Assembly (NCBI GenBank): GCA_016208305.1
Contig: JACQYI010000078.1
Span: 310,001 to 374,000, forward strand
Length of the DNA stretch: 64,000 bases
Direction: 5' to 3'
DNA from: Oscillatoriophycideae cyanobacterium NC_groundwater_1537_Pr4_S-0.65um_50_18
GTDB taxonomy: Bacteria; Cyanobacteriota; Cyanobacteriia; Elainellales; Elainellaceae
The notes under the pieces are model-generated. The model did no database searches. It was given only the letters and a program-made list of their open reading frames with translations, and was not told the origin of the DNA. Positions within the stretch are counted from its first letter, which is position 1. Every line of letters starts with the position of its first letter. This document shows positions 19,493-29,549 of the stretch, in pieces. Made by a program: the position numbers and the translations under genes.

Positions 19493-20296
19493 TTAAAAGC
19501 TAGCCTCTACAAACTGCTTACCGCAGTCCTTACAGCGATAGCACTGCTTTCCCCGACGGTGCCCATTTTTAGACAACTGCTCAGATTGACAGTGAGGGCA
19601 AATCATTACTTTCATTACATGATTGAACCGATCGCCCTGCATAGATGGCTCTAAATATGACACTAGCAGATCTTCAATTTGTTGAATCAACTGTTGACGG
19701 TACTCCTGATCCGGGCTGCGAAGCGCTGCCAGCATCACTGCATTGCTGCTGTGGACACAGACTTCTGCGAGTAGGTTGCACTGTTCCTGGGGTAGGGTAG
19801 GCGTTCTTTGTTTCAGAATAGCTGCCATGAACTGAATCGCGTCCTGGGTCATGCTTTCATCGATCGATTGAAAAATCTGCCGAGACAGATAAAATTGCAC
19901 AAACACCACACGCGAGACAGGTTGCTGAAACAGGTCTACCATCGCCGTGACCAGAGCATGAATCATCTGGCGCAGGGGTAGTTGAACGATAGCGGGAATG
20001 TCTGCCTGTTTCCAAAAGGCATTGACTCGTTCGGTATGGCGTAGCTCCATTGCCTTAAAAATGGCAGCTTTATCGGGGAAAAACTGATAGAGAGAGCCGA
20101 TCGCCGTTCCTGCTTGGGCTGCGATCAGATGCGTTGTTGCCGCCTCATAGCCCACCTCATCAAATACGGCAGCGGCAGCATCCAGGATTTTTTCGACCCT
20201 GGCCTTACCGCGCTGCTGCTTGGGCTGACGACGCAAGTTAATGGCCGATTGCGTGCCAGGGGGTTCAACACTTGACGAATGTGAATGTTCTGTCAT
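19493..20296 (-). CDS. TetR-type regulator with a C-terminal IS1-like zinc ribbon
   Basis: The N-terminus is a TetR helix-turn-helix (RVEKILDAAAAVFDEVGYEA, then AAQAGTAIGSLYQFFPDKAA, about residues 33-80), followed by a helical ligand-binding domain to about residue 225. The last 40 residues are unlike TetR: ICPHCQSEQLSKNGHRRG then KQCYRCKDCGKQFVE, a CxxC-CxxC zinc ribbon of the kind found at the N-terminus of IS1-family transposases. The decayed IS1 element at 28.97 kb has the same pattern. I chose the ATG at 20296 (267 residues); a longer frame to 20392 would overlap the divergent gene. It lies 52 bp from that Rieske oxygenase gene and probably controls it. Confidence 0.85.
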   Translation of the reverse strand: MTEHSHSSSVEPPGTQSAINLRRQPKQQRGKARVEKILDAAAAVFDEVGYEAATTHLIAAQAGTAIGSLYQFFPDKAAIFKAMELRHTERVNAFWKQADIPAIVQLPLRQMIHALVTAMVDLFQQPVSRVVFVQFYLSRQIFQSIDESMTQDAIQFMAAILKQRTPTLPQEQCNLLAEVCVHSSNAVMLAALRSPDQEYRQQLIQQIEDLLVSYLEPSMQGDRFNHVMKVMICPHCQSEQLSKNGHRRGKQCYRCKDCGKQFVEASF

Positions 20297-20348
20297 ATTT
20301 TTAAAACACGACGGATCTTTCACAATTTTATCTTCAACGGAGAACACT

Positions 20349-21344
20349 ATGCAGTCGATGCTTCCGGGTGCGCCTTGGTTATTGGCGCACAAGTCGATGC
20401 TGAATGTGAATCAACCTCAAAAAATTTCTCTGTACGGGGTTGACTATGTGATGTGGAAAGACAAAGCGGGAGCCATTCAGGCGTTACCCAATGCCTGTCC
20501 TCACATGGGGGCAATGCTGTCAGAAGGCTGGTGTGACGTGCAAAAGGATGGCATGAGTACCGTCGTTTGTCCGTTTCATGCCCTGCCGTTTGATGCAGAA
20601 GGCTGCACCGTTTTACCTGGCGGCAAGAAAACATTACCTCAATTGAATCCTCTGTCGCTGATCATTCAGGGTGACTTTATTTGGTCGTATGGGGGATATG
20701 AACCGAAGATTCCTATTCCCACTGTGCTAAATGAAATTGCGAACCTATATTCCTTTATTGGACATACAGCCGATCGCCGTATTGAAACAGATTTGTTATC
20801 CCTGCTGCTCAACATGCATGATTACAACCATCAAAATGGTACCCATCGAGAGCTGTTTCGCATTACGGATATCGAGTTTCATCAGTTTATCGATCGCGGA
20901 CATCAGTCCGATGCCTTCTATGACATGCCTACTGCACCCTATAGCCTAATGGAAAAGTTGAGAAAACCAGATTTGTGCTTACTGCCTGCCACAATTAAAG
21001 CGCATCTAGAAAATCACTTTCCGTCTCTGGTGATCTTTCATGGAGAGATGCCGTTGGGTAAAGCCGCCCAGTGTCATATCTTTGTGCCGGAAGCTGAGAA
21101 TCGAACCCGGACTTATATTTTATTATTTGGTCAGGCCAAACATGCCATCTTTAAACTGCTTGGCGGTACCTATCTCAAATTTGGCAAGGTCGTTGTGGAT
21201 CAAGATGCAGATATTTTAGGCAAGATTTATCCAGGCACGCCTCAGAAAATCAAGCTAAATAACGAAGTGGGGATGGACTGGGTGCGACGAAATTTTGAAA
21301 GTTTCCCCGATATTGTCGCACCTAACCTGAGCCGATTGTCCTAA
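20349..21344 (+). CDS. Rieske [2Fe-2S] non-haem iron oxygenase
   Basis: A 331-residue protein with an N-terminal Rieske domain: ACPHMGAMLSEGW and VCPFHALPFD supply the Cys-His and Cys-His ligand pairs (about residues 48-90). The catalytic part has LLNMHDYNHQNGTHRELF, which carries His and Asp residues in the arrangement used for a mononuclear iron. It belongs with aromatic-ring or small-molecule oxygenases of the phenylpropionate dioxygenase type. No ferredoxin reductase partner is adjacent. The start at 20349 follows GGAG and leaves room for the divergent TetR gene. The substrate is unknown. Confidence 0.87.
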   Translation: MQSMLPGAPWLLAHKSMLNVNQPQKISLYGVDYVMWKDKAGAIQALPNACPHMGAMLSEGWCDVQKDGMSTVVCPFHALPFDAEGCTVLPGGKKTLPQLNPLSLIIQGDFIWSYGGYEPKIPIPTVLNEIANLYSFIGHTADRRIETDLLSLLLNMHDYNHQNGTHRELFRITDIEFHQFIDRGHQSDAFYDMPTAPYSLMEKLRKPDLCLLPATIKAHLENHFPSLVIFHGEMPLGKAAQCHIFVPEAENRTRTYILLFGQAKHAIFKLLGGTYLKFGKVVVDQDADILGKIYPGTPQKIKLNNEVGMDWVRRNFESFPDIVAPNLSRLS

Positions 21345-28926: not shown

Positions 28927-29549
28927 GGCGTTGCATAACGAGAATATGAAGTCAGAGTGAGACCAGTGCAATGTCCTGCATGTGGCTCAACCAGTATCAG
29001 TAAGAATGACAAGCACAGAGGGAAACAAAATGACCTCTGTAAAGCCTGTCGTCATCAATTTATTGAAACCTATGCCCCGCCTTCTCCGTATTCCGATGAA
29101 TTCAAGCGTGAATGCCTCAAAATGTAGGTCAACGGCATGGGATTTCGAGGCATTGAACGGACTGCCGTTGACCACTTCCGAAAAGGGATCTTAGGGTGGG
29201 TTCTGGGCGACCTAGTGCGGAGACATTTCGACCTTTGGGAGCGATCGTTTCGACTTAGCAATGCTACTTTTATGTCACTGTTCGCGTAGCGTTGCCGAAG
29301 GCATTAGGTTGGAGTGTTTATCCGGGTTTCATTCCAGACGGAGACCCAATTGTGAGCAAGACCTACATGACGCGAGTTAAGGGAGAAAACACGCGATTGC
29401 GGCACGACCTTGCTCGGTTGCATCGCAAGACATTGTGCTATTCCAAATCCGTAGAGATGTTGAAGTACTCGATCCGATTGCTACTGCCCTATCTCAGATT
29501 TAGTGGTGTACCTGTCCCTCAGTGAATCATATTCCTATGCAGCAACGCC
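28927..29549 (+). mobile_element. Decayed IS1-family insertion sequence
   Basis: Terminal inverted repeats are recognisable: GGCGTTGCATAACG at 28927-28940 and, reversed, GGCGTTGCTGCATAGG ending at 29549, both followed inward by AATATGA. Inside, a zinc-ribbon frame from GTG 28966 (QCPACGSTSISKN, then KHRGKQNDLCKACRHQFIE) stops at 29127. After it VNGMGFRGIERTAVDH and GWVLGD follow the IS1 order, broken by frameshifts, and the end is the catalytic C-terminus. No intact transposase and no clear target duplication remain. Confidence 0.8.
28966..29525 (+). pseudogene. IS1-family transposase, broken
   Basis: Three pieces in different frames: an InsA-like zinc ribbon ending at a premature TAG (29125-29127), a middle piece with NGMGFRGIERTAVDHF, and a C-terminal piece (from about 29307) with WSVYPGFIPDGDPIVSK, TRVKGENTRLRHDLARLHRK and LCYSKSVEMLKYSIRLLL. 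The last is the conserved end of cyanobacterial IS1 transposases. Gaps and frame changes make it inactive. Confidence 0.85.

Follow-up and report, generated by a model that had tools for sequence, protein, structure and literature searches.

A TetR gene with a zinc ribbon beside a Rieske oxygenase gene

The window, that is, the whole stretch of 64,000 nucleotides analysed here, carries on its minus strand (19493..20296) a gene for a TetR-family regulator of 267 amino acids with a C-terminal zinc ribbon and on its plus strand (20349..21344) a gene for a Rieske oxygenase of 331 amino acids (PF00355, 51.3 bits). The genes are divergent and 52 bp apart (20297-20348), with the Rieske ATG at 20349, as given in the preliminary description. 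The Rieske protein has remote relatives only, both in the PDB and among proteins of named function. The regulator is composed of a disordered N terminus, TetR_N, TetR_C_15, a short linker, and the zinc ribbon. TetR_N is the N-terminal helix-turn-helix domain of TetR proteins (PF00440, 53.9 bits versus a cut-off of 24) and TetR_C_15 the all-helical ligand/dimer domain (PF17918, 85.6 bits versus a cut-off of 26.8), an assignment with which the predicted model and the fold neighbours agree. Residues 27-221 share their fold with the TetR/AcrR repressors EthR (Z 17.9), DesT (Z 17.0), and FasR (Z 16.5), but these proteins end after the ligand domain, whereas the TetR protein of the window continues into the ribbon, outside the aligned structures; the fold search with whole models aligned the TetR body only (to about residue 226) and is uninformative for the ribbon and for the winged helix of relatives described below. 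The divergent pair of a TetR and an oxygenase gene is reminiscent of the EthR gene, which sits beside that of the monooxygenase EthA.

The C-terminal end of the TetR protein reads MICPHCQSEQLSKNGHRRGKQCYRCKDCGKQFVEASF. As had been claimed from the letters, it is a zinc ribbon of the IS1 transposase type with four cysteines: residues 233-264 match the NCBIfam model NF050000 (IS1_IS1595_Zn) with an E value of 1e-13 and 51.6 bits (cut-off, 28), and AlphaFold2 predicts three strands (pLDDT of 84-91) for the ribbon (residues 231-267; 19496..19606, minus strand), preceded by a linker with a pLDDT below 50. With the Pfam model of the InsA ribbon, the tail scored under the model's cut-off. The CxxC-18-CxxC spacing and the motif are those of the N terminus of IS1-family transposases and InsA (NF033558, NF050000). 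Unlike these proteins, the TetR protein stops after the ribbon, which stands behind a TetR body, and both the helix-turn-helix and the DDE domain are absent; moreover, its gene is present in a single copy, has a fixed neighbour, and is not followed by an IS remnant. Among the papers searched, we found none on TetR proteins with a C-terminal zinc ribbon.

A degenerate IS1-family transposase is encoded elsewhere in the window (28957-29525, plus strand), with a ribbon at one end and the C-terminal catalytic end at the other. The stretch 28957-29127 matches NF050000 (41.2 bits), 29292-29525 aligns to the IS1 transposase model at the latter's C-terminal end, and an in-frame stop marks the decay of the element. 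The match of both ribbons to one model bears out the earlier observation that the remnant's ribbon (28,966-29,075) and the TetR tail follow the same pattern. The tail is 52% identical to the remnant versus 51-60% to other IS1-type ribbons of the genome; hence, nothing singles out the remnant as its source, and a local origin from the element at 28957 is unsupported. IS1-type open reading frames of related genomes that share the CxxC-18-CxxC spacing and the motif are up to 71% identical to the tail. Cyanobacterial IS1-type elements (L254-L257, L264-L266, L268, L270, L272, and L273) share ends of the form GGCGTTGCATAATnAAgGATGAaTT.

Distribution, conservation, and history of the tail

Full-length homologues including the tail were found in many families when 60 related genomes were searched (47-80% identity), and scanning public genomes brought up 80 loci, almost all of them cyanobacterial, with carriers in Leptolyngbya, Nostoc, Microcoleus, Pseudanabaena, Acaryochloris, Nodosilinea, one Gloeobacterales MAG, and others. 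The occurrence is patchy, with 15 positive genomes out of 386 sampled over the phylum (E value of 1e-40) and 81 out of 390 genomes of the class when a body-only query taken from a winged-helix member was used. After deduplication, the set contains 92 distinct TetR proteins with a ribbon, 1 with a ribbon plus helix-turn-helix, 14 with a winged-helix-like tail, and 26 short proteins, some of which are fragments. A search for the tail in other cyanobacteria with the same neighbour, as suggested before, was positive: a divergent Rieske gene adjoins the gene of the ribbon protein at 89 of the 92 loci, and the other 3 lie at contig edges. TetR and Rieske are the sole genes common to all of the 54 longest loci (the next commonest neighbour is found in 8), indicating that these two genes move, or are retained, together as a unit. 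The TetR-ribbon gene is thus tied to one conserved gene pair, as opposed to the varying places of a mobile element. The Rieske proteins beside ribbon-tailed TetRs fall into two types, one at least 58% and the other less than 50% identical to the Rieske protein of the window. Other relatives, not part of the Rieske set, adjoin genes that, as named from sequence, are cytochrome P450-like or alpha/beta-hydrolase-like.

Closer inspection of the ribbons revealed that all 93 ribbon-bearing homologues retain the four cysteines with their 18-residue spacing, and therefore, the pattern is not a product of chance. Along with the cysteines, an N, a G, and two Q are unchanged throughout the 93 ribbons (N244, G245, Q251, and Q261 are the invariant residues, next to the four cysteines, in 44 aligned sequences), and the basic or polar residues of KNG-x-RR-GKQ, typical of transposase ribbons, are as conserved as the cysteines. 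A fifth cysteine (position 19) is nearly fixed in one clade (79/93), where the other clade has Arg. Omega, determined by a counting method over 497 pairs, rises from the DNA-binding domain (0.027) through the ribbon (0.051) and the ligand domain (0.086) to the linker (0.41); of these values, only the ranking is usable since the pairs are non-independent and synonymous sites are near saturation. The linker ahead of the ribbon and the residues behind it are unconserved, and the stop follows 5 to 31 residues past the last cysteine in all but one of the 93 ribbon proteins. No transposase relic was found 3' of the stop within 330 bases at the 93 ribbon loci, where matches were no better than in the reversed control. 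As judged from these comparisons, the ribbon tail is under strong purifying selection. The earlier proposal that a transposase domain was captured by a regulator gains from both lines of evidence, the selection and the occurrence of the tail with the same neighbour over many genera.

In a tree of 131 TetR bodies (tails excluded), a single group of 112 (support of 100/99) unites the Rieske-linked proteins with their close kin; within it, ribbon and winged-helix tails are interleaved (8 label changes for the ribbon and 3 for the winged helix). The winged-helix-like C-terminal extension stands in for the ribbon beside the same type of Rieske gene (L027, L028, L098, L122, L125, L129, L130, L131, L136, L146, and others); it matched no family in Pfam or NCBIfam, and its predicted model has three helices and a two-strand wing. 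One protein on a long branch, L101 (4001-4753 and beyond), is a TetR fused to an IS1 ribbon plus helix-turn-helix and is the only member to keep the latter in frame; its tail matches positions 1-81 of the IS1 transposase model with 89 bits, which is under the full-length cut-off. The L101 gene is divergent from a cytochrome P450-like gene. With a predicted winged helix or an IS1 ribbon plus helix-turn-helix at the same place, the addition of a second DNA-binding-type domain is a recurrent event in this family. Four of the Rieske-linked proteins have become tailless (L023, L094, L096, and L117), and some lineages can thus do without the tail; in L094 (L189), the linker is split by an element that carries a DUF772 transposase, and the ribbon persists downstream as a separate open frame (about 3150-4470 of L189). 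The junction VMKVM is common to both ribbon clades, and the AU test does not reject a single clade of tails (p values of 0.285 and 0.262, from 35 columns that give little resolution); separate captures in the two clades, which were also considered, are not shown by this test. We favour a single capture of the ribbon, followed by replacements and losses.

Predicted operators and the proposed role of the tail

The 52-bp gap and the start of tetR hold two 20-bp palindromes of the form RYGA-N8-TCRY. Predicted operator 1 (20279..20298, ATGTGA-N8-TCATAT) lies over the tetR start codon and inside a sigma-70-like Rieske promoter (20272..20299, plus strand, TTGACG-16-CATATT), and predicted operator 2 (20306..20325, ACACGA-N8-TCACAA) is 27 bp away. 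The promoter scan gave 2 hits versus 0.0 expected from shuffles, and the Rieske promoter is conserved in the alignment. Two operators, with a spacing of mostly 27 bp, are present at 81 of the 89 Rieske-adjoining ribbon loci (shuffles, about 0.03 per locus). In the whole 6.9-Mb genome, the only tandem operator is that of the Rieske/tetR promoter (0 in the control), as would suit a regulator that acts only locally. Winged-helix members beside a Rieske gene mostly have one operator (8/9), and two, again 27 bp apart, lie upstream of the genes of the tailless relatives L199, L201, and L202. Since tailless relatives carry the same palindromes upstream of their genes, it is probably the TetR body, rather than the tail, that reads the operators, and the tail would be unnecessary for their recognition. 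A ribbon-specific motif was sought in the promoter alignments and none was found, and the outer half-sites TGTGAA/TTCACA, tried as ribbon sites, fall within the 20-bp palindromes, which are shared with tailless and winged-helix relatives. For the same reason, the idea in the preliminary description that the tail contacts 20297-20348 received no specific support.

Our model, to which we give about an even chance, is that of a local autorepressor that has kept a captured IS1 ribbon as a second module, tethered to it, for contact with DNA. Long ago, a TetR repressor of the oxygenase gene would have captured the first ~33 residues of an IS1-type transposase, comprising the zinc ribbon but neither the helix-turn-helix nor the catalytic domain, and retained them as an accessory module. 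One TetR dimer may bind per 20-bp palindrome, operator 1 covering the Rieske promoter and the tetR start and operator 2 lying just upstream of tetR, and the dimers would repress both genes until they are released by a ligand, perhaps the substrate or product of the oxygenase. The ribbon, on its disordered linker of ~8 residues, is expected to bind zinc and could add a second, low-specificity DNA contact beside the operators, thereby stabilising the two dimers on the tandem site. In InsA of IS1, the zinc finger and the helix-turn-helix are both required for binding to the inverted repeats (PMC12428005), and therefore, the ribbon alone more likely adds affinity than specificity. The elements on which this model is built, the TetR body, the ribbon and the selection on it, the strict divergent pairing with Rieske, and the two palindromes in the promoter, are established at the level of sequence. 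Against a second DNA contact speak the absence of InsA's helix-turn-helix, the sharing of the operators with tailless relatives, and the four losses of the tail.

It is imaginable, though unlikely in our view, that the ribbon does not contact DNA but is a metal or redox sensor that informs the repressor of zinc, iron, or thiol oxidation. The four invariant cysteines, the additional one in one clade, and a neighbour that needs an iron-sulphur cluster would be consistent with such a role. However, a pure metal sensor would not need KNG-x-RR-GKQ residues as conserved as the cysteines, the fifth cysteine is Arg in the other clade, and the ribbon's place beside the same Rieske type can be taken by winged-helix tails. 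Zinc ribbons often bind proteins, and the promoter lacks a ribbon-specific DNA motif, so the tail might also bind a protein partner, such as RNA polymerase or another regulator, instead of DNA; yet the ribbon derives from a DNA-binding module, and its replacements (the predicted winged helix and the ribbon plus helix-turn-helix) are all of the DNA-binding type, which makes this rather improbable.

The junction element and the significance of the capture

The join of TetR body and ribbon is marked by a 16-base element, GTAATGAAAGTAATGA (19603..19618, minus strand), which is constrained at synonymous sites and also present at 92 homologous loci. V227 is encoded by GTA in 90 of 91 genes and V230 in 91 of 91, although, over the whole of these genes, 27% of the valine codons are GTA; on the tree, the two codons changed 1 and 0 times, whereas nine further conserved valine codons changed 19 to 35 times each, and the median for 136 conserved codons was 21. 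The constrained stretch extends from the third base of codon -7 through codon -1 (ATA or ATT, never ATC), has A/T third positions throughout these codons, is free of C, and contains two 9-bp direct repeats, A(T/A)GTAATGA, with two in-frame ATGs. Apart from the N terminus, which the operator overlaps, it is the strongest synonymous constraint of the gene. It is missing from winged-helix and tailless members; in L055, the protein repeat at the junction is expanded to VMKVMKVM. To judge from the codons, selection has kept the exact DNA letters at this join. Two candidate explanations were rejected: IS1-type elements of cyanobacteria have ends of approximately GGCGTTGCATAAT..GATGA, and the likeness of the junction element to a piece of such an inverted repeat is not significant (p values of 0.06 and 0.13 versus shuffles), and a +1-frame reading upstream, if shared, is open for a median of only 11 codons. 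Tentatively, and with some doubt, the element may act at the level of nucleic acid, either by providing an internal start from which a free ribbon is made or by being bound by the ribbon or another factor, and would then be an autoregulatory switch within the coding sequence.

An internal start at the ATG of GTAATG would yield a free ribbon of 38-40 residues with a modulating effect on the repressor, an arrangement similar to that of InsA and InsAB' in IS1. The constraint on an element with two in-frame ATGs, its lack of C, and its A/T third positions in codons -7 to -1 could be explained in this way, and IS1-type open reading frames begin with MxCPxC at the corresponding place. However, a Shine-Dalgarno-like sequence upstream of the junction ATG was found at 0 of 92 loci, which rejects a start of that type, and a start codon would not demand that the preceding codon be GTA over GTT; we consider the internal start decidedly improbable. 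That the tail arose by accidental read-through or as a recent, functionless insertion near the stop, the other origin considered in the preliminary description, is refuted by the conservation data: four tailless members and the unconserved residues around the ribbon could be read in its favour, but 92 distinct proteins in many genera carry the tail, 89 of them beside a divergent Rieske gene, under strong purifying selection (omega of 0.05) with all four cysteines kept in 93/93 and no transposase remnant downstream.

In animals, host regulators are well known to have captured DNA-binding domains of transposases; in bacteria, to our knowledge, such events have rarely been documented. Prokaryotic transcription factors recruited from mobile elements also bring a DNA-binding domain of such an element into host gene regulation; the examples considered here from a review of them are of the Xre and ribbon-helix-helix types, not a transposase ribbon joined to a TetR (PMC8987985).

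In sum, the sequence comparisons support an ancient capture, that is, TetR repressors with a zinc ribbon taken long ago from a transposase. The capture is old, common to many cyanobacterial genera, and bound to one target gene. The junction element adds a constraint at synonymous sites within the coding sequence; if it acts as considered above, the capture of a transposase domain would also have created an autoregulatory switch inside the coding sequence. The sister proteins with a winged helix or without a tail provide a natural experiment on the effect of an added domain on a repressor.
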